This document shows, in pieces, positions 9,160 to 33,620 of a DNA stretch of 53,279 nt. The notes beneath the pieces were generated by a model. It was not told the origin of the DNA. It made no database searches and saw only the letters and a program-made list of their open reading frames with translations. This DNA comes from an uncultured Alphaproteobacteria bacterium. Its GTDB lineage: Bacteria; Pseudomonadota; Alphaproteobacteria; Rhodobacterales; Rhodobacteraceae. The position numbers and the translations under genes were made by a program. Position 1 is the first letter of the stretch; every line of letters begins with the position of its first letter. The stretch lies in NCBI GenBank assembly GCA_902596985.1, contig CACJWR010000010.1, positions 1 through 53,279 on the forward strand. Reading direction: 5' to 3'.

Positions 9160-10839
9160 TTGCTGTTAAGAGTATTGAATATTGTCGTCCAAGTGACCAT
9201 TTTAGGTACACTTGTTGGAATAGTGGTATCACTGCTTTCTTTAGGGTTTGTCTACGGCGTCAAAGAAATATCATCTTTTAGAGAGGCGTATGGTCTTTGC
9301 TCTTTTGTAATTTTTAGTAATTGTTTTAGTTACGCGCCTTTAGCTTTTTTGTTGATAAGCGCGATAATAATATTGTCAGTAAAAAAAACATTGCATATTT
9401 CTAGATACCATGGACCAGCAGATGTTATATTGACAGCACACAGCAACACCGAAAGCCTGGATCCTAAAACTGGTTTTCTTTCTACGTTCGCCGCTTTTGT
9501 TTCTGCTAGTGGCGGGGCATCAGTAGGTCAGTATGGACCCTTAGTTCATTTAGGTGGAACCATCGGGAACTTAATAAACAAATTTACACCCGGTTTACTT
9601 TCCAAAGACACTTTTATCGGTTGTGGAGTAGCGGCAGCAATTTCCGCCGGCTTCAGTTCACCTATTGGCGGAATTATTTTTGCTCATGAAGCAATATTAA
9701 GACATTTTTCCTTTAAAGCTATAGCTCCTATAGCAGTAAGTAGCGTAGTAGGTTCAACTTTAACAACATATTTTTTTCCGAGCGGTATACTTTTTCAGAA
9801 TACTGATGCTAGAATTGAGCTATTACCTGCCGTATCTTTATCTCTTCTTTTAGGTCCAATTTGTGCTTTAGGCTCTGTTATTTTCATGAAATCCCTACTT
9901 GCTTTACAGAAAAATGTCCAGATCGTAGGAAGAACTGAGCTTTCAAGAATTTTGATTGCCGTAATGATATGTGGTTTGTTAGGAGGATTTTTCCCAGAAA
10001 TTCTCGGATTAGGTGGGAATACAATTGTTGGGATTTTAGATAACTCATTTTCACTTGGTTTTTTATTCATAATACTTATTCTAAAGCTCTTTGTTACTGT
10101 GGTTTGCCTTAGTTTAGGTTTTTTTGGGGGGGTATTTTCTCCAGCACTCGTTTTAGGTGCATCAGTCGGAGGCATATTTACCATTTTTGGAAATTTTATT
10201 GGTTTTGAAAATTTAGGCGACTCACTTGTATTGGCAGGAATGGCTGCGTTATCAGCTTCTGTAATTGGTGCACCAATTGCTTCAATTGTTATTATTTTTG
10301 AGCTGACACACTCGTATGATTTAGCCTTCGTGGCCATAATATGTGTTGCTGCTTCCTGTCTTATTAGCTCATTAACATTTGGGCACTCATTTTTTGATAA
10401 ACAGCTCATTAATCGAAATTTCAAAATAAATAGCGGGAGATCTGAAATACTGCTTTCAGAGGTAGTTGTTACCACACTCATTGGAAAAAATGAATTTTTA
10501 AAGGTCAATAAATCAATTACAAAAGATAGTCTTTTAGCTCAATTTAGAGATACTGATTTCACAGAAGCATACGTAGTTAATGACTTCAATCAATTAATAG
10601 GAAAAGTAAAAGTGAATGATCTATTGAAAGTTGATGATCAAGTCGAACCATCTCGTCCGCTTATTATTAGAGAAACTGATACAATTTCGGATGCAATTAA
10701 AAAAGCAAGTAACTTTGTGGGAGAGAGTATCCCGATATTAAAGAAGGATGACACACTACTGGGAGTAATCACGGAGGCTGACCTATTTTCTCAATATCTT
10801 GAGGTACAAAGCGCTATTTCTAACATAGAAAAAGACTAA
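9160..10839 (+). CDS. ClC-family chloride channel with C-terminal CBS domain pair
   Basis: 559 residues. Multiple membrane helices fill residues 1-410, followed by a soluble tail with two CBS repeats (about 435-550). ClC anion-site motifs are recognisable: GGVFSPAL at 323-330 matches the GxFxP signature. The usual GREGP/GKEGP segment reads GQYGP at 123-127, so the gating glutamate is a tyrosine. The loop FAHEAI (about 174-179) keeps only one of the two glutamates found in E. coli ClC. By family knowledge both changes point to passive anion conduction rather than H+/Cl- exchange; this is an inference from hand alignment. The start is TTG 9160, after an in-frame stop at 9145. It ends base-to-base against the next gene on the other strand. 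Confidence 0.85.
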   Translation: MLLRVLNIVVQVTILGTLVGIVVSLLSLGFVYGVKEISSFREAYGLCSFVIFSNCFSYAPLAFLLISAIIILSVKKTLHISRYHGPADVILTAHSNTESLDPKTGFLSTFAAFVSASGGASVGQYGPLVHLGGTIGNLINKFTPGLLSKDTFIGCGVAAAISAGFSSPIGGIIFAHEAILRHFSFKAIAPIAVSSVVGSTLTTYFFPSGILFQNTDARIELLPAVSLSLLLGPICALGSVIFMKSLLALQKNVQIVGRTELSRILIAVMICGLLGGFFPEILGLGGNTIVGILDNSFSLGFLFIILILKLFVTVVCLSLGFFGGVFSPALVLGASVGGIFTIFGNFIGFENLGDSLVLAGMAALSASVIGAPIASIVIIFELTHSYDLAFVAIICVAASCLISSLTFGHSFFDKQLINRNFKINSGRSEILLSEVVVTTLIGKNEFLKVNKSITKDSLLAQFRDTDFTEAYVVNDFNQLIGKVKVNDLLKVDDQVEPSRPLIIRETDTISDAIKKASNFVGESIPILKKDDTLLGVITEADLFSQYLEVQSAISNIEKD

Positions 10840-20568: not shown

Positions 20569-20585
20569 TTGGCACCTATTTTGCA
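20569..20585 (+). promoter_or_regulatory. Sigma-54 promoter of fliKLMN
   Basis: TTGGCACCTATTTTGCA is an almost perfect sigma-54 site (TTGGCAC and TTGCA both exact), with GG at 20571-20572 and GC at 20583-20584. Predicted transcription start is near 20596, so the leader would be only about 15 bases and would begin at or within the ribosome site GGAGGA (20595-20600) before ATG 20611. Confidence 0.88.
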
Positions 20586-22043: not shown

Positions 22044-22619
22044 ATGGCAGAAGAAGAGAAAGAAGAAGAACCTAAAAAGGGTGGCCTAATGAAAATCATA
22101 ATGATGGCTTTAGGAGCTATTGCTTTGATAGGCGTAGGCGTAGGAACTGGATATTTTTTATTCGGTGGTAAGCCTGCTGATCCCTCAGCAGAAATAGAAG
22201 AAATAATTGAAAGAAAAATGAAAGAGGCCGAAGAGGCAAAAGCCGCAGAAGAAGCGGCAAATTCTGGGCCACAAAAAAAGGAAGCTCCAGAGGTGGAGAA
22301 GTTTATAACCACTTACTACGAGTTCCCAGGTAACTTTACAACAAACTTGAGAGGCTCAAGAAAATTTTTGCAAGCTGGAATTGGAGTGTCGACACAATAT
22401 GATGAAAACGTAATAAATAATGTGGAAGATCATCAATTATCGTTAAGGTCAAGCATTTTGGCCGTTATGAGCGAATTTTCTGAGCAGGATATTGAAGGTA
22501 AATCAGGAAGAGATGCACTTGCAAAAGCCATTGCAGCAGAACTAAACACAAAATTAGAGGCATTAGAAGGATTTGGGGGGATTGAGAATGTTCATTTCAC
22601 TTCCTTTATGCTTCAATAG
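22044..22619 (+). CDS. fliL: Flagellar basal-body associated protein FliL
   Basis: 191 residues. An N-terminal charged stretch (EEEKEEEPKKGG) leads into one membrane helix at about 14-38, then an acidic/alanine-rich linker and the periplasmic FliL domain (TTYYEFPGNFTTNL, FLQAGIGVSTQYDE, LRSSILAVMSEFSEQDI). FliL forms a ring around the stator and supports torque. It lies before fliM as usual. Confidence 0.94.
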   Translation: MAEEEKEEEPKKGGLMKIIMMALGAIALIGVGVGTGYFLFGGKPADPSAEIEEIIERKMKEAEEAKAAEEAANSGPQKKEAPEVEKFITTYYEFPGNFTTNLRGSRKFLQAGIGVSTQYDENVINNVEDHQLSLRSSILAVMSEFSEQDIEGKSGRDALAKAIAAELNTKLEALEGFGGIENVHFTSFMLQ

Positions 22620-24053: not shown

Positions 24054-24070
24054 TTGGCATGATACTTGCC
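24054..24070 (+). promoter_or_regulatory. Sigma-54 promoter of fliOPQR-flhB and following genes
   Basis: TTGGCATGATACTTGCC has GG 24056-24057 and GC 24068-24069. Predicted transcription start is near 24081, just before the ribosome site AAGGAGGT (24083-24090) of ATG 24095, so the leader is about 14 bases. The fliO promoter of Rhodobacter sphaeroides is a studied RpoN/FleQ/FleT target, which supports this reading. Confidence 0.82.
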
Positions 24071-25581: not shown

Positions 25582-26397
25582 ATGGAGCAATCACTTAATG
25601 ATATTATTCCAGGCTTAGGCCTGCAGAATATTATGGAGCTCTTGCTTGCATTTTTTCTAACCAGTATCAGGCTAAGTGCATTCATTATTGCCTCCCCTCT
25701 TTTTAGCGCGCGTTTTATTATGCTGAGAGTGAGAATTATAATTGCATTTGTAATATCTATAATAGTTTTTTCAATTCACCCGCTCGAGCTTGATACACAG
25801 ATACTGACCTCTGCATATGGTATCGCTGTTATTTTCAAAGAGATAGCTATCGGAGTCACCGCGGGCTTAATACTTTCGATTATGTTTTCTGCTGCCTCTT
25901 TAGCAGGAGAAAAAATAGCAACTAGTGCTGGTTTAAGTTATGCTGCCCAAGTTGATCCCGTTTCTGGAGTGCAAACCCCTGTCGTAAGCCAAATTCTATA
26001 CCTGTTCCTAATAATGATTTTTTTGACAGTTGATGGTCATCTGATTGCACTGCGGATAATAATAGAGAGTTATCAGCTAATACCCATAGGAACTCTTCCA
26101 GTACCCTCAGCATTGATTGATGGCGGAATGGCTGCTTCCGGCTCAATGTTCTTAAACGCTTCCATAATTATGTTGCCGGTTGTACTAGTTGTATTGCTTA
26201 TCAATGTTGCAATTGGAATAATTACTCGATCGGCTCCACAACTGAACTTATTTTCTTTTGGTTTTCCAATAACAATGCTCGGTACTTTTATTGTTTTATA
26301 CCTTTCAATAAGTAACTTAGGGTTTGCTTTTTCCGACTTGATTGATTCCTCTCTAGATCATTTAATGACAACAATTGAAAGTCTGAAAAATGGCTGA
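25582..26397 (+). CDS. fliR: Flagellar export gate protein FliR
   Basis: 271 residues, six to seven hydrophobic segments. IRLSAFIIASPLFSARFIMLRVRI, FKEIAIGVTAGLILS and QLNLFSFGFPITM are conserved FliR features. It starts 3 bases after fliQ and overlaps flhB by 8 bases. Confidence 0.96.
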   Translation: MEQSLNDIIPGLGLQNIMELLLAFFLTSIRLSAFIIASPLFSARFIMLRVRIIIAFVISIIVFSIHPLELDTQILTSAYGIAVIFKEIAIGVTAGLILSIMFSAASLAGEKIATSAGLSYAAQVDPVSGVQTPVVSQILYLFLIMIFLTVDGHLIALRIIIESYQLIPIGTLPVPSALIDGGMAASGSMFLNASIIMLPVVLVVLLINVAIGIITRSAPQLNLFSFGFPITMLGTFIVLYLSISNLGFAFSDLIDSSLDHLMTTIESLKNG

Positions 26398-27544
26398 AGA
26401 AAACCAGGATGGCCAAGAGAAAACCGAGGAACCTTCCCAACGTAAAATTGATAAGTATAAAGAAGATGGTAAGGTATTAAATTCCAAAGAAATGTTTGTT
26501 TTTACGGGAATAGCTGGTGCCTTCTTGCTTATGTATGCCCTTTCATTCAGTTTCCGAGCGCTTTTATTTGAATGGGGAGATCTTTTTGTTTTGTCTGGCA
26601 ATGATAAACTTGAAGACTTACCTGCTACAAAGTCTCTACAGGCACTAATCTTTATAACGAAAATTAGTTTATTAGTCGGAATTCCGATGTTGATCATCGT
26701 TTTGGCGACACAATTTGCCGTTGGTGGAATAAATTTCGCTCCAAAAGCGCTTGCCTTTAAGTCTAACAGAATCAATCCCCTTAGTGGCTTCAAACGTATG
26801 TTTTCTTTGAAAAGCTTGGTTGAGCTTGGTAAAGCTTTATTGAAAGTTGGTTCCTTATTTGCGAGCGCTATAGGGGTTATATACTACTTACTCCCTCAAA
26901 TGTTACGCATTACTGATGGAAGCTTAAAATCAGGGCTAGAACTTACTCGATCTTCTTTTCCTCTTTTGATAGGAGCTTTGTTGGTTTGCCTAATGATTAT
27001 AGCTGCTTTGGACTATTTTTATCAGAGATATGAGCATATTAAGTCTCTCAGGATGACCAAGCAAGAAGTCAAAGATGAATATAAACAAACCGAAGGGTCC
27101 CCTGAAGTTAGAGCAAAAATAAGAAGGCTCCAAATGGAAAGTGCAACAAAATCGGCTAAGCAACAAGAGGCCTTGCAAAACATGGGTGAAGCTACGGCAA
27201 TTATTACAAACCCAACTCATTTTGCCATAGCTCTTAAATACGATGTGGGTCAAGTGGGTGCCCCTAAAATTATTGCAATGGGCAAAGGACTTATAGCAAA
27301 AAGGATTATGGAAATAGGAATTGAAAAGAATATAACAAGTTTTAGAAGCCCCCTTCTCGCAAGAGCACTATTTTTCACAGGTGAAATCGGAGAGGAAATA
27401 TCTGAAAAGCTTTACAATGCAGTAGCTGTGGCACTAGCATATGTCTATAAATTAGATAGAGGGGAAGATTTAGATGCCCCAGATATTGATGTTCCTGAGG
27501 ATTTAAGATTCAATGAAAATGGAACAATTTTGAAGGAGAATTAA
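26390..27544 (+). CDS. flhB: Flagellar export switch protein FlhB
   Basis: 384 residues. The N-terminus QEKTEEPSQRKIDKYKEDG is typical, followed by four membrane helices. The autocleavage site is intact as NPTH in TAIITNPTHFAIALKYD, near residue 270. FlhB controls the switch of export substrate with FliK. The C-terminus is somewhat extended (DLDAPDIDVPEDLRFNENG). It is followed one base later by a run of four unknown genes. Confidence 0.97.
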   Translation: MAEENQDGQEKTEEPSQRKIDKYKEDGKVLNSKEMFVFTGIAGAFLLMYALSFSFRALLFEWGDLFVLSGNDKLEDLPATKSLQALIFITKISLLVGIPMLIIVLATQFAVGGINFAPKALAFKSNRINPLSGFKRMFSLKSLVELGKALLKVGSLFASAIGVIYYLLPQMLRITDGSLKSGLELTRSSFPLLIGALLVCLMIIAALDYFYQRYEHIKSLRMTKQEVKDEYKQTEGSPEVRAKIRRLQMESATKSAKQQEALQNMGEATAIITNPTHFAIALKYDVGQVGAPKIIAMGKGLIAKRIMEIGIEKNITSFRSPLLARALFFTGEIGEEISEKLYNAVAVALAYVYKLDRGEDLDAPDIDVPEDLRFNENGTILKEN

Positions 27545-27545
27545 T

Positions 27546-27773
27546 ATGCCTAGACGAAGTCATGAATCTCTTGGAGACTATATAAGTTCAGCTTGTTTTG
27601 GAGGAGTTGCCTTTCTTTCTCTATTAAATGGGCTAGAAGCTTTTTATTCTGGTAACGTTTTACGAGCAATATCCATCTGGTTTGTTTCTTTCTTGTTGTG
27701 CCTTGCAGTTTTTAGATATGCAATAGCCAGACTTTTCGACTCTATTGCGGCTAAAAAGAACAAAAAGTTATGA
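27546..27773 (+). CDS. Small membrane protein of unknown function (post-flhB module 1)
   Basis: 75 residues, two predicted membrane helices (about 16-36 and 42-62) between basic ends (MPRRSH at the start, AAKKNKKL at the end). It is not recognised. The gene starts 1 base after flhB and overlaps the next gene by 4 bases (ATGA), so it is translationally coupled within the fliO-flhB unit. Co-expression with the export gate suggests a flagellar or envelope role; nothing more can be read. Confidence 0.7.
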   Translation: MPRRSHESLGDYISSACFGGVAFLSLLNGLEAFYSGNVLRAISIWFVSFLLCLAVFRYAIARLFDSIAAKKNKKL

Positions 27774-27964
27774 TGACTTGTAATCAATGTATCCATTTGT
27801 TTATAACACACGATCCTAGAAGAAGATGGGGGTGCAGAAAATTTGGATTCAAATCATCAAAAATTCCTTATCAGGAGGTTGTAGCAACAACTGGCATGAA
27901 ATGTGCTTATTACAAACAAAGAGTTATAGTAAAAAAAATTGAATCTCGTAGGAGGTCACCTTAA
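27770..27964 (+). CDS. Small four-cysteine protein of unknown function (post-flhB module 2)
   Basis: 64 residues with cysteines at positions 4, 7, 22 and 45. CNQC near the N-terminus plus two later cysteines could hold a zinc ion or an iron-sulfur cluster. The rest is basic, ending KKIESRRRSP. There is no membrane segment or signal peptide. It overlaps the previous gene by 4 bases and the next by 1 base (TAATG). Its family is not recognised. Confidence 0.7.
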   Translation: MMTCNQCIHLFITHDPRRRWGCRKFGFKSSKIPYQEVVATTGMKCAYYKQRVIVKKIESRRRSP

Positions 27965-28713
27965 TGAGTTCAGATCTAAGTACCATCGAAGAAAGTATAA
28001 AAATCGCCTTGGATGCAGCGGATGCGGCGACTGACGTAACCTCTGAATATAATAAAGTTAAAAGAGAGCATAAAAAACTGGAGACACAAGTGAAGCAAAT
28101 ACATCGTTATACTACAATAATTTTTGGAAGCTCTATGATTGCTGCAATCGTAGCCATGATATTTTCATCAGTGCTCTATTTCCGCTCAATGTCAGACTTA
28201 GGTGTGATGACTACTACGAACAGAGAAGCTCTAGTGATTTTTGCCGAGAATGTTGATGATTTAAAAGATAATGTTAAAGCTTTATCGGTAGCGATGGAAA
28301 GTCAGGTGGCTCTTGAAAAGCAGAACGCAAAATTAGTTGAAGAATTATCCTCTCTAAGAAAAGAAATTTCTGTTGCGACAAATGCACTTGCTAGTAGAGT
28401 TCTCGAGCAAAATAAAGGGTTGCAGGAGGTGATGACTAAAAACACCGAGCAAGCAGTTAATATATTTGCCCAAAATGTTGCACAAACCTTTGAGAAAAGG
28501 TTAAGTGAACTAAATAAAGGAATTGATGCTTATCAAAATCAGCTACTAGCAGCGTTAAAAGAAATTAACTCTTCCAACACTGATAATATTGTCATGGAGG
28601 AAATATCTAAATCCCAAAACCAGCTTACCGAAGAAATTAGATCTCTATATAAGAAAAATGAAGAGATATTTAGCAAAATCAAAAGCTCCGATGGCCTAAT
28701 AAAGTTTCCATAA
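27964..28713 (+). CDS. Single-span membrane protein with long coiled coil (post-flhB module 3)
   Basis: 249 residues. A helical cytoplasmic N-terminus (1-48) and one membrane helix (about 50-73, TIIFGSSMIAAIVAMIFSSV) precede about 170 residues of coiled coil (VALEKQNAKLVEELSSLRKE and onward). The positive-inside rule places the coiled coil in the periplasm. Methyl-accepting-type signatures are absent. The ribosome site AGGAGGT is strong. The protein is not recognised; a scaffold or adaptor at the basal body is an inference from context. Confidence 0.72.
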   Translation: MSSDLSTIEESIKIALDAADAATDVTSEYNKVKREHKKLETQVKQIHRYTTIIFGSSMIAAIVAMIFSSVLYFRSMSDLGVMTTTNREALVIFAENVDDLKDNVKALSVAMESQVALEKQNAKLVEELSSLRKEISVATNALASRVLEQNKGLQEVMTKNTEQAVNIFAQNVAQTFEKRLSELNKGIDAYQNQLLAALKEINSSNTDNIVMEEISKSQNQLTEEIRSLYKKNEEIFSKIKSSDGLIKFP

Positions 28714-28733
28714 GTTCAAGAAATCAAAAAAGC

Positions 28734-29600
28734 ATGCAAGATTCAGACAACTATCAAGCCGAAAGCCAAAATGGCGGGAATACTTATTCGGAGATCCCCA
28801 ACGAAAATTTCAATGAATTGGGGGAAAGCACTTCTGACGAAGTTAAACTGCAAAACTTCTTAAAATTGAAAGAACATGGACAATCTTCTAGAACTAGAGC
28901 TTTGAGGTTAAGAGAAAATGACGTCGTAGTTGCGATTGATGGTATTAGCTATCACGATAGTATAGACAACATGGTTGATCTTTTATCAAGTGGAGAAGAG
29001 AGCGATATGTGGCTCTTGACAATCTGGAGAAATGGGAAGTTTTTTGAAATATTTTCCAGAGGTCCTCTAGGTGGCATTTTTGAATTCACTCGCCCCGAAG
29101 AGTCCCAAATGATAATGGAATTATTTCAAAAAAGGGAAATAGGTGAAAAAGAGGACTACCGTATTTTTGAAGCACTCAGAGACGTAAAAAGAGTAGTGGA
29201 TGTATACGACACCACTCATAGTCAGATAGCAGTTATTTTACCTCCCGTATGGTTATTACAGCAAAAGATGTGGGAACCATTACTAGCTATACTATGTGTT
29301 TATCTTATCACCTTCAGTGTAAATATATTTCTATTTATTTTAGCAGTAATACTAGTTGCTCTATACCTTAGGAAAGGCCAAGTTATTCTTAGAAGAAGCT
29401 ACGGCATGTTTCAAGACAGGCAAGTATGGGCGATAGTTGCTGCTAGGTCAGATAAAGAAGCTCAGGAGATGTGTCGTGGTCTTGATGAAAAAGTTAACTT
29501 TATTAATGCCCTTGTAAAACCTTATAAAAAGGAAGTTCCTAAACCTAGGAAAAAGAATAAATCTGGCAACGTTATGAAAGCTATGCAGCAATTTACATAG
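28734..29600 (+). CDS. Membrane protein with PDZ-like domain (post-flhB module 4)
   Basis: 288 residues. An Asn/Glu/Ser-rich N-terminus (1-50) precedes a PDZ-like fold at about 55-112: ALRLRENDVVVAIDGISYHD looks like the ligand-groove strand, then MWLLTIWRNGKFFEI. A hydrophobic hairpin of one or two helices lies at about 182-212, and a basic cytoplasmic tail follows (EVPKPRKKNKSG). No protease catalytic residues are seen. It follows module 3 by 20 bases and is the last gene of the unit. Function unknown; PDZ assignment is by eye. Confidence 0.68.
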   Translation: MQDSDNYQAESQNGGNTYSEIPNENFNELGESTSDEVKLQNFLKLKEHGQSSRTRALRLRENDVVVAIDGISYHDSIDNMVDLLSSGEESDMWLLTIWRNGKFFEIFSRGPLGGIFEFTRPEESQMIMELFQKREIGEKEDYRIFEALRDVKRVVDVYDTTHSQIAVILPPVWLLQQKMWEPLLAILCVYLITFSVNIFLFILAVILVALYLRKGQVILRRSYGMFQDRQVWAIVAARSDKEAQEMCRGLDEKVNFINALVKPYKKEVPKPRKKNKSGNVMKAMQQFT

Positions 29601-30575: not shown

Positions 30576-31736
30576 TCAAAAATTTATTTCGATTTCAATT
30601 CTTCTATTTTTTTCTCGTCCTGCAGCGGTATCATTCGAGTCTACTGGCTTTGACTCACCAAAACTTACAGCCTTCATTCTATCCGTGCTAATATTACCTG
30701 CTTTCTCAAGCTCTTGCACGACACTAGACGCTCGAGCTGCTGCTAGATCCCAGTTATCTCTGAAGTTACCACCAAACATTAATGGAACATTATCAGTATG
30801 ACCCGACACAGTTATTGTACCAGTATCCCCTACCCCTTTGTCTGCGATTTTAGCCATTATCTGTCGAGCCTGGGACGTTAATTCTGCTGATCCCGATGAA
30901 AAAGCTCCCCCAGATCCAACGGTAACAAAGACTTTGCCATTTTTTCTTTCTACACTAACCAAACCTTTATCAATTTCATTTTTTAAAGCGACTTCAAGTT
31001 CATTAGCAGCTTGATTAGCTGAAGCTTCTTTCGCTGATTTATCATTGTCATTTACTCCTGCGCCAGAATCTTTTGATGATCCTCTTGTTTCGCCATCTGC
31101 TTCCGTTTGGGCCAGGGATGCAAGCTCCTTTAATTTTTCTTCGAGCCCACCAAAAAGCACCTCTTGATCGGTATTTCCAGTTTTATTCTTAGCCTCTTCA
31201 ATAGCTTCCAAAGTCTCTTGTATCAACTTGGGCAGATCTTTTGCTGCTGTGTCTTGATCACCGATTTCCACTTTTACAGCTTCTCCAATCGCTTCGACTT
31301 TAATTTCTCCCTTATCAACAGCCTCTTGAAGGGCTTCAACTAGTTCTTTAGCACTTTTGTCCTTCTCTCCTCCCTCATCCTCTTCCGTTTTCACTTCAAG
31401 TTCTTTTTTCTCTAGATTAGTGGTCTGCTGCGTCATTTGCTTAGTAACTGATGGACTAGGGGAAGGGCTAAAGTTTAAAGATAATACCGTCGTCCCCTTT
31501 GGTTGTTCTACTACAGGCACCAATCTCTGAACACCAAATGCGTTCTTTAATGAACCAGATATCTGCTTGAATTTAGGGACGTTAAATTCTGCAAATGAAA
31601 GAATTAGAACAAAAAAGGCCATTAAAAGGGTAGCCATGTCTGCGAAGGTTGCCATCCATGCTGGGGCTCCAACCGGAGGACATTTGGGACATTCCTCTTC
31701 CTCTTCTTCTATCTCTGCTTCTACTTCTTCTGCCAT
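30576..31736 (-). CDS. motB: Flagellar stator protein MotB, PomB-like
   Basis: 386 residues. One membrane helix carries the ion-binding aspartate D33 in FADMATLLMAFFVLILSF. The region after it (AEFNVPKFKQISGSLKNAFGVQ, then PKGTTVL and TKQMTQQTT) follows the layout of Vibrio PomB. The C-terminal OmpA-like peptidoglycan-binding domain includes TITVSGHTDNVPL and AAGREKNRRIEIEI. A long acidic linker (about 100-250) separates the two. It follows motA by 24 bases. Sodium coupling is suggested by PomB resemblance but is not proved by sequence. Confidence 0.94.
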   Translation of the reverse strand: MAEEVEAEIEEEEEECPKCPPVGAPAWMATFADMATLLMAFFVLILSFAEFNVPKFKQISGSLKNAFGVQRLVPVVEQPKGTTVLSLNFSPSPSPSVTKQMTQQTTNLEKKELEVKTEEDEGGEKDKSAKELVEALQEAVDKGEIKVEAIGEAVKVEIGDQDTAAKDLPKLIQETLEAIEEAKNKTGNTDQEVLFGGLEEKLKELASLAQTEADGETRGSSKDSGAGVNDNDKSAKEASANQAANELEVALKNEIDKGLVSVERKNGKVFVTVGSGGAFSSGSAELTSQARQIMAKIADKGVGDTGTITVSGHTDNVPLMFGGNFRDNWDLAAARASSVVQELEKAGNISTDRMKAVSFGESKPVDSNDTAAGREKNRRIEIEINF

Positions 31737-31760: not shown

Positions 31761-32525
31761 TTATGCGGCGGCTTCAAGTTTCTGTTGTACTGCTGGCGGT
31801 AAATTAGCTACCATCTGATCTTGAATGTTTCTTGGGGATTCCCCTCTAGCTATATTTCTTAAGCCCATAACAACCATTTCCCTGTAAGTAACCTCATACG
31901 CGGTGTAACCTTCTAGAGATGTTATCATCGGCAAAAATAACACGTTTGCTATAAAAGCTCCGTATAGAGTAGTCAAAAGAGCAACAGCCATGGCTGGGCC
32001 AATCGCCTTAGGGTCTGCCATATTTCCTAGCATCAAGACTAGTCCGACTAGTGTACCGATCATACCCATAGCTGGAGCAATATCTATCCATGCTTTTACA
32101 ACATTTTGATTTGACTCATGGCGGGCCTTCATAGCTTTAATTTCTTGATTTAATTGCGTTGTAAGCTTTGCCTCATCTGCTCCATCGACTAGCATCTGTA
32201 ATCCCTTTGAAAAAAACTTATCAGGGACATCTTGACCCTCAAGCGCCATCATTCCATCTTTTCTTGCTATTCCAGCAAGTTCAACCATTTTTGTAACCAA
32301 TTCATCTTGAGGTTTCACAGGTGGAAAGAAAGCCTTTGCCATGACCCCAAAAGAGCCAAGAAATGTTGGCAATGGGCACGTGTACATGACACAAAAGAAA
32401 GTTCCACCAAAAACAATGGCTAATGAAGGAACGTCTATAAAGGGACCTACGCCACCCCCTGAAACCATCGCGTATATAATAAATCCAAGCGCTCCAATTA
32501 ATCCTAGAAGAGAGGCTATATCCAT
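31761..32525 (-). CDS. motA: Flagellar stator protein MotA, PomA-like
   Basis: 254 residues from ATG 32525 with AAGGA six bases before it. Four membrane helices are present; the conserved block IAPAMGMIGTLVGLVLML and DPKAIGPAMAVALLTTLYGA are nearly identical to PomA of Vibrio. MotA/PomA surrounds the two B subunits and pushes FliG. The open frame continues upstream to 32567, but the added residues (basic, soluble) do not fit the family. A sigma-54 site lies upstream. Confidence 0.95.
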   Translation of the reverse strand: MDIASLLGLIGALGFIIYAMVSGGGVGPFIDVPSLAIVFGGTFFCVMYTCPLPTFLGSFGVMAKAFFPPVKPQDELVTKMVELAGIARKDGMMALEGQDVPDKFFSKGLQMLVDGADEAKLTTQLNQEIKAMKARHESNQNVVKAWIDIAPAMGMIGTLVGLVLMLGNMADPKAIGPAMAVALLTTLYGAFIANVLFLPMITSLEGYTAYEVTYREMVVMGLRNIARGESPRNIQDQMVANLPPAVQQKLEAAA

Positions 32526-32574
32526 AGTTTTTCCTTTATGCTCATTATATTTTCTTACCTGCAACAAATATCAT

Positions 32575-32681: not shown

Positions 32682-33161
32682 ATGACAAATTTACGACTTA
32701 CAATTTTATGTTTTATTTTAATTTTCACCGGCTCAAACTTGCACGCCAGTGATAGCAGATTTATTGTGAAAGAACACATAGTTGTTGATTTAGAACGTAA
32801 AATTGAGTGGCTAAGGTGCACAGTGGGCCAGCGATGGAACGGCAATGCATGTGAGGGAAAGATCGTCAACCTTTCTTTGAATATGGTTCCAACAGCGTTA
32901 AATATTGCAAATGAACAACTCGGCGGAAAATGGCGATTACCATCGCAGGCAGAACTTAAGTCGATAGTTTGCAAAGAGTGTTCTTCTCCAAAAATAAATG
33001 AGGACATCTTTCCAAATACGGATAATGCCCCTTATTGGACTGGTGACCAAAGCATTTTTAATAGTAAGTTCTATGTAAGTGTTAACTTTCATACTGGTTT
33101 CTCTTTTAATAGGTTTTCTCCAATTAAAGAGCTAGCAGTCAGATTAGTAAGAGACAGATAG
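32682..33161 (+). CDS. Secreted DUF1566 (Lcl C-terminal domain) protein
   Basis: 159 residues. A signal peptide covers 1-22 (ending NLHAS). The DUF1566 pattern is complete: VVDLERKIEWLRC, GGKWRLPSQAEL, APYWTGD and a final VRLVRD. Two cysteine pairs (CTVGQRWNGNAC, CKEC) probably form disulfides. Proteins with this domain are exported and often surface-linked; the molecular function is not established. It is divergent from motA-motB. Confidence 0.8.
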   Translation: MTNLRLTILCFILIFTGSNLHASDSRFIVKEHIVVDLERKIEWLRCTVGQRWNGNACEGKIVNLSLNMVPTALNIANEQLGGKWRLPSQAELKSIVCKECSSPKINEDIFPNTDNAPYWTGDQSIFNSKFYVSVNFHTGFSFNRFSPIKELAVRLVRDR

Positions 33162-33172
33162 TATTATTTCAA

Positions 33173-33415
33173 CTACATTTTCTTTTCGATTTTATCTTTT
33201 TTCCACTGCCAAAGCTTGAACAAGAATAAAAGAAACCCAAGCACCATAATAATTGCTGCTATTAATTCTGTGGAAATGAAATTCAATAAGTAAAGTCTAT
33301 CACTAGCCACTAGTCCTAAAATTATGAGCATTACTGTGGCCAATATAAATGATCTAATCAATCGACACGTAAAACAGGGCCCTTCAGGCGTGTTTTTCTG
33401 CTTTATTCTGAACAT
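33173..33415 (-). CDS. Small hypothetical membrane protein
   Basis: 80 residues from ATG 33415, which has GAGG five bases upstream; a longer frame starts at 33430 but that would overlap the ribosome site. CFTC near residues 14-17 is followed by two membrane helices (about 21-38 and 46-66) and a basic tail (KLWQWKKDKIEKKM). It ends 11 bases from the DUF1566 gene, tail to tail. No family was recognised. Confidence 0.65.
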   Translation of the reverse strand: MFRIKQKNTPEGPCFTCRLIRSFILATVMLIILGLVASDRLYLLNFISTELIAAIIMVLGFLLFLFKLWQWKKDKIEKKM

Positions 33416-33620
33416 TTCTACCTCTTTCATAGGTTAACTTATGCTTTTAATTTTTAATAGTTTTTTTTTGACATACCAATTTTTTATTTTTAACCGGGGT
33501 AATGTAATACTATGTTTTTATTGAATAATTATTTCAAAAAGCTGACATCAAGGCTTGTCAAATTGATTTTTTTGAATTTTGAAAGGAACCTGCTTTCATA
33601 ATCTTACAAGGAGAATTGAA

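Follow-up and report, generated by a model that had tools for sequence, protein, structure and literature searches.

The closest described relative of the locus studied here is MotF of Rhodobacter sphaeroides, one of the few accessory proteins genetically linked to opening of the flagellar stator. In the account of this protein, MotF and FliL let the MotA/MotB stator work: they act on the MotB plug, in the remodelling of which they are implicated, so that protons are conducted through the stator in the motor, and loss of MotF causes a rotation defect that is suppressed by MotB plug mutations (PMC7277832). MotF is described there as a 24 kDa protein with a membrane segment at residues 54-74 and a periplasmic carboxy part; its recruitment to the motor requires FlgT, and its localisation depends on MotA/B and FliL (PMC7277832). 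The same source places MotF mainly in Rhodobacteraceae and gives the Fla1 flagellum a gamma-proteobacterial origin (PMC7277832). MotF has since been called Cereibacter-specific in a 2024 publication (PMC10954123).

Two further sets of proteins invite comparison. In Sinorhizobium and Agrobacterium, MotF is also the name of a FliL paralog (PMC9812332). That protein resembles gene C of the present locus in being a stator factor, the loss of which is suppressed by motA changes in S. meliloti, but it is a different protein: it is a paralog of FliL, whereas C gave no Pfam match to the FliL domain at E <= 1 and lies in a window that has a fliL of its own (PMC9812332 for the Rhizobiaceae protein). MotK and MotE of the Cereibacter sphaeroides Fla2 flagellum are likewise described as accessory proteins that an alphaproteobacterial flagellum requires in order to rotate; they are periplasmic and part of another (Fla2) system, and we liken them to the module by description only (PMC10954123).

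The locus lies in the window, by which we mean the whole stretch of 53,279 nucleotides that was analysed, and its features are listed in Table 1. Four genes, A to D, follow flhB on the same strand at spacings of +1, -4, -1 and +20 bases; the ORF table and the sequence confirm the coordinates and spacing given in a first-pass annotation of this DNA, and its descriptions of the four products also hold. In A, a clear hydrophobic segment (38-56) is accompanied by a weaker one (about 16-34), in keeping with a two-helix membrane protein. B carries four cysteines (C4, C7, C22 and C45). C is membrane-anchored, with its top 19-residue hydrophobic window at 52-70 and a coil-like tail, and D, called a PDZ-like membrane protein, combines a PDZ domain with a membrane hairpin. 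Upstream of A lie fliO, fliP, fliQ, fliR and flhB, all on this strand and either closely spaced or overlapping; downstream of D, the convergent motB and motA are followed by an Lcl_C gene, by a small gene and by rpoN.

Table 1. Positions of the module genes, neighbouring flagellar genes and sigma-54 consensus matches in the window.
Feature	Position	Strand	Basis or remark
flhB (export gate gene)	26390..27544	+	Pfam PF01312 E 4.6e-97; heads conserved block
A: 75 aa, small membrane protein, probably two helices	27546..27773	+	hydropathy; alignment of 42 relatives
B: 64-aa four-cysteine protein, probably metal-binding	27770..27964	+	widespread small family
C: 249-aa MotF ortholog	27964..28713	+	near-invariant helix at residues 9-30, single membrane segment, coil, carboxy end [IV]-x-[FY]-Pro
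D: 288 aa, PDZ domain 43-118, DUF2628-like membrane hairpin 180-226	28734..29600	+	
fliL	22044..22619	+	Pfam PF03748 E 1.9e-17
motB (plug-bearing stator subunit), convergent to D	30576..31736	-	Pfam MotB_plug E 1.7e-17, OmpA
motA, stator subunit, Ala-terminal tail	31761..32567	-	Pfam MotA_ExbB E 4.9e-29
sigma-54 consensus, exact TGGCAC-N5-TTGC, before fliK	20570-20584	+	consensus match only
sigma-54 site, one mismatch, before likely fliO start	24055-24069	+	consensus match only

Of the two genes between motA and rpoN (window 32682-33430), one encodes a protein of the Lcl_C type (PF07603) and the other a small, membrane-like CxxC protein; the same pair occurs in many related loci. Besides the flagellar genes, the window holds a gene for a CLC-type chloride channel that includes a CBS domain (9160-10839).

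Hits for A, B and C in single-sequence searches of Pfam and NCBIfam were all weak, so that identification was decided by relatives and gene order. For R. sphaeroides we used the record G724, which we take to be chromosome 1 of strain 2.4.1, with motF presumably being RSP_0067. RSP_0066 has been listed as flhB, and RSP_0067 appears there as a hypothetical protein with a presumed role in motility (PMC9779115). The gene order in G724 is fliR, flhB, C, D and a convergent rpoN. Read from its ATG, the G724 C protein has 239 amino acids, a mass of 24.77 kDa and its top hydrophobic window at 54-72. Window C has a single membrane segment near the published 54-74, followed by a large C-terminal part. 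The C profile, run against genomes of the window's family, matched G724 with an E-value of 4.4e-6. Reciprocal N-terminal profiles were built from the first 110 alignment columns alone: the nine-sequence family profile found window C with E 2.4e-18, its 7 matches among 807 ORFs being the C of each of 7 loci, and the profile of 16 other sequences found G724 C with E 7.1e-9 as the sole match in 117 ORFs.

The likeness between the two proteins thus takes in the place after flhB, an N-terminal part of about 50 residues with a conserved motif, a membrane segment at nearly the same position and an x-[FY]-Pro end, with D and a convergent rpoN following in G724. The differences are in size (27.8 kDa for window C versus 24.8 kDa), in a pairwise identity of only 14%, and in the presence of A and B between flhB and C in the window, whereas G724 has no recognisable A or B. 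Judged by profiles, position, size and membrane segment, C is an ortholog of R. sphaeroides MotF. The earlier statement that no gene of the set matches a known flagellar part was therefore wrong for C, and because C matches MotF the module as a whole is not the undescribed system for which it had been put forward. We propose, with a probability of roughly 0.75, that A-D, centred on MotF, make up a module for stator activation in a Fla1-type flagellum.

Conservation within C is uneven, the mean majority fraction over 30 aligned rows being 0.92 for residues 9-30, 0.61 for 51-73, 0.36 for 101-240 and 0.66 for the last four. The carboxy end reads [IV]-x-[FY]-Pro in 80/80 of the best 80 of 169 relatives. 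In a wider set (n=32), 31 proteins end in Pro, the exception being L037, and Phe, Tyr or Leu sometimes takes the fourth-last position. The C stop does not overlap the D start, so an overlap does not impose this conserved end. Names returned for C by NCBIfam, for instance PaaE with 18.7 bits where the cut-off is 420.8, were rejected as coil matches, as were matches of the C profile in the PDB to coiled proteins including chemoreceptors (E 2.5e-4).

A scan of the named genome collection with the C profile gave 169 relatives, the best 80 of which were used for locus counts, and these counts are therefore biased toward close relatives. The order flhB-A-B-C-D is intact on one strand in 78 of the best 80 loci, beyond what chance would give; the two exceptions are contig ends, L046 beginning at B and L083 stopping after C. 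Among the same best 80 of 169, A is present in 79, D adjoins C in 79 and motB is convergent in 49. Many of the record titles for these loci name SAR116 or unclassified Alphaproteobacteria, and a few name Rhodobacteraceae, Paracoccaceae, Planktomarina, Rhodospirillaceae, Rhodobiaceae, Pelagibacterales or Gammaproteobacteria, although some of these MAG names may be wrong.

Median gaps in the best 80 of 169 loci are -1, -4, -1 and 30.5 bases, and the tight run from flhB up to C could be read in terms of protein export. According to this alternative, A-D would assist assembly or regulation of the FlhA/FlhB export gate directly ahead of them, with the rotation defect of MotF mutants as one branch of their effects. 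Operon neighbours, however, need not share a mechanism. Furthermore, the suppression of MotF loss by MotB plug mutations and the dependence of MotF localisation on MotA/B and FliL (PMC7277832) indicate the stator and not export, and we consider a role in export rather improbable.

Beyond the best-scoring loci, the N-terminal motif separates C from weaker matches. The C profile gave 29 matches in 394 genomes of the window's family, 24 of which were kept as C with this motif; the five dropped (E 7.3e-4 to 0.0097) lay behind the N-terminal motif. It gave 26 matches in 289 genomes of the class, from which 19 weak ones (E 3e-6 or worse) without residues 1-40 were dropped, leaving C with the motif in 7/289 genomes, the window among them. 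From 18 matches in 200 genomes of the phylum, 17 without residues 1-39 were dropped and only the window's own C remained. In the 289 Alphaproteobacteria genomes, B was matched in 8 and D in 7, counting the window in both. The full order flhB-A-B-C-D was found in G186, G044, G277 and G249, the last of which we take to be the SAR116 member Candidatus Puniceispirillum marinum IMCC1322. G178 shares this order; its A was recognised in the ORF table and its C is truncated where the contig stops. G140 shows flhB-B-C-D plus an ORF of 40 aa, possibly the tail of A, and D of G145 is located at a contig end. The B match in G282 (E 0.0085) is probably due to chance, its contig holding no other module gene or relative of the window.

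The small genes A and B are less constant than C and D. A has no Pfam match above cut-off. The four cysteines of B are invariant in 43/43 aligned relatives, and B is probably metal-binding, as judged from this sequence pattern; its AlphaFold model is poor (pLDDT 62.9). The first B profile had matches in 82/398 Pseudomonadota genomes, and flagellar neighbours were recognised by eye in none of the 29 loci of that search. Since relatives of B are widespread and have non-flagellar neighbours, B belongs to a general family. Stand-alone relatives (L123, L137 and similar; two loci checked with Pfam) lie beside Rieske, NifU_N, FeS_assembly_P and Dabb genes. We also considered the carboxy end of B, GR-[LIF]-A, as a PDZ ligand and rejected it: GRLA occurs in only 13/80 (best 80 of 169), and the bases in question would also provide the probable ribosome site for C and the start of that gene, which overlaps B.

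These features of B bear on a second alternative, in which C would be a MotF-type stator activator while A, B and D make up a separate small membrane machine, for example in membrane-protein quality control, that shares the operon. The wide occurrence of B relatives outside flagellar clusters is compatible with such an arrangement, as is the pattern in 22 further loci of the window's family (1.5 kb read on each side), where A was seen in 18/22 and B in 13/22. In the same loci, however, D adjoins C in 22/22, and together with the 79/80 among the best 80 of 169 this indicates that D, at least, is not independent of C. We regard a separate machine as quite improbable. In L214 (8929-9510) and L197 (710-1327) a minus-strand ORF of about 200 aa occupies the place between A and C where B is expected.

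The distribution of C also follows that of the flagellum. Among 22 genomes of the window's genus, flhB was found in 15, C in 14 and both in 13. The three mismatched genomes are all contig ends: G013 holds 20 residues of flhB, G015 runs out inside A and G018 starts inside C. Six genomes have neither flhB nor C, including G001 with 90% completeness. Thus, contig ends aside, C and flhB are present or absent together in this genus. In 15 other genomes of the family from the same set, 14 have a distant FlhB, and C was absent from all 15 by single-sequence and by profile search. FlhB proteins of the window's genus and of other genera in the family (G022-G036) share about 30% identity, so that this one family holds two flagellar lineages.

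These results speak against an envelope or defence complex that is unrelated to the flagellum and came to stand after flhB by chance. PDZ domains and membrane hairpins do occur in proteases and envelope proteins too, but C co-occurs with flhB in the window's genus, is missing from the 15 family genomes that mostly carry the distant flhB, and matches MotF; we consider a chance placement extremely improbable. The suggestion of a flagellar or envelope accessory complex is thus retained in part: the genes form a coupled flagellar accessory module beside flhB in many genomes, while an envelope complex unrelated to the flagellum is disfavoured.

A quick FlhB tree was built from 55 sequences, comprising 25 from loci with the module, 15 from Alphaproteobacteria without a recognised C and 15 from other Pseudomonadota. 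All 25 module-bearing FlhB proteins fall in a single clade, set off by a branch with SH-aLRT 99, and their neighbours are three other Pseudomonadota (G479, G437 and G534) and the alphaproteobacterium G048. This placement agrees with the gamma-proteobacterial origin published for Fla1 (PMC7277832).

D is the constant partner of C, and both fold and sequence profile give it a PDZ domain. The AlphaFold model of D, made with 52 sequences, has a mean pLDDT of 87.6 and shows the PDZ domain at 43-118, helices at 180-196 and 198-226, and strands on both sides of the helices. The D profile matched the DegQ PDZ domain with E 6.2e-8. In VIA-align comparisons, D 40-118 superposed on RseP PDZ2 with Z 9.0 and an rmsd of 2.0 over 77 residues, and D 39-130 on GRASP65 with Z 9.8 and an rmsd of 3.6 over 87 residues; the best Foldseek E-value was 1e-3. 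Pfam PDZ_6 was found in 27/52 D members at E <= 0.01, window D scoring 17.6 bits, below the cut-off of 27, and DUF2628 (PF10947) in 24/52 at the same threshold, window D scoring 22.8 against a cut-off of 23 bits. D thus shares its fold with the PDZ domains of RseP, DegQ and GRASP, but has no protease domain among its Pfam matches. We saw no signal peptide in D, and its membrane helices are even in number and followed by basic residues, which suggests a cytoplasmic location for both the PDZ domain and the C-terminus.

For the stator-activation module, the following arrangement can be inferred from sequence and predicted structure. C would span the inner membrane, with its near-invariant cytoplasmic helix 9-30 docking on a cytoplasmic partner and its periplasmic coil ending in a fixed tip that would touch the motor or stator. 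D would sit on the cytoplasmic face, held by its membrane hairpin, as the constant partner of C, and A and B may be small assembly or stability factors that are missing from some lineages. Searches of open-licence literature yielded no described function for A, B or D, no account of MotF in SAR116, and no PDZ protein tied to the flagellar motor.

The tail of MotA might offer a ligand for the PDZ domain of D. MotA is Ala-terminal in 39/43 loci, often with KLxAA, and MotA of the window and its family ends in -AA in 7/7. In the outgroup, 2/6 MotA proteins are also Ala-terminal, one of these with AA, so that the MotA tail as PDZ ligand is only a weak lead; MotA of Rhodobacter sp. CZR27 is AA-terminal as well. 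A bolder version of our proposal would make A-D one inner-membrane machine, in which the PDZ domain of D captures the Ala-terminal tail of MotA and passes the stator to MotF, the x-[FY]-Pro tip unlocks the MotB plug, and A and B regulate the process, B possibly through its metal or redox state. We consider this version unlikely. If it were true, many swimming marine Alphaproteobacteria would be using a new mechanism, namely a stator loader guided by a PDZ domain.

The genes had also been thought to share a sigma-54 promoter. Consensus matches do lie upstream of fliK and fliO, and such a promoter is plausible as far as consensus matches go; the exact site before fliK is a possible candidate promoter of the entire run through D. 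From the fliO-proximal site to the end of D, no plus-strand site with 0 or 1 mismatch was found. At up to 2 mismatches the whole window holds 59 sigma-54 matches against 32.5 expected, and weak single sites therefore carry little meaning.

What appears to be new here, from sequence comparison, is that this MotF family extends to SAR116, has a constant PDZ partner and ends in a fixed [IV]-x-[FY]-Pro. The module would thus be a wider lineage trait than one of Cereibacter, and it marks the Fla1-type flagellum in SAR116 and related pelagic bacteria.

One full copy of the cluster is plasmid-borne. On plasmid pOA238_118 of Octadecabacter arcticus (L274, record 13577-46278), flhB, A, B, C, D and rpoN lie in one cluster that also carries an FlgT-N protein, an LPP20 lipoprotein, motA and motB. 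A separate search with FlgT_C missed its intended positive control too (0/2) and is therefore uninformative on FlgT. As single queries, C and D of G724 had no match in the plasmid collection, although profiles do find both on pOA238_118, where they are annotated as hypothetical proteins. The presence of a large Fla1-type cluster with the full module on this 118-kb plasmid points to a possible route of spread.
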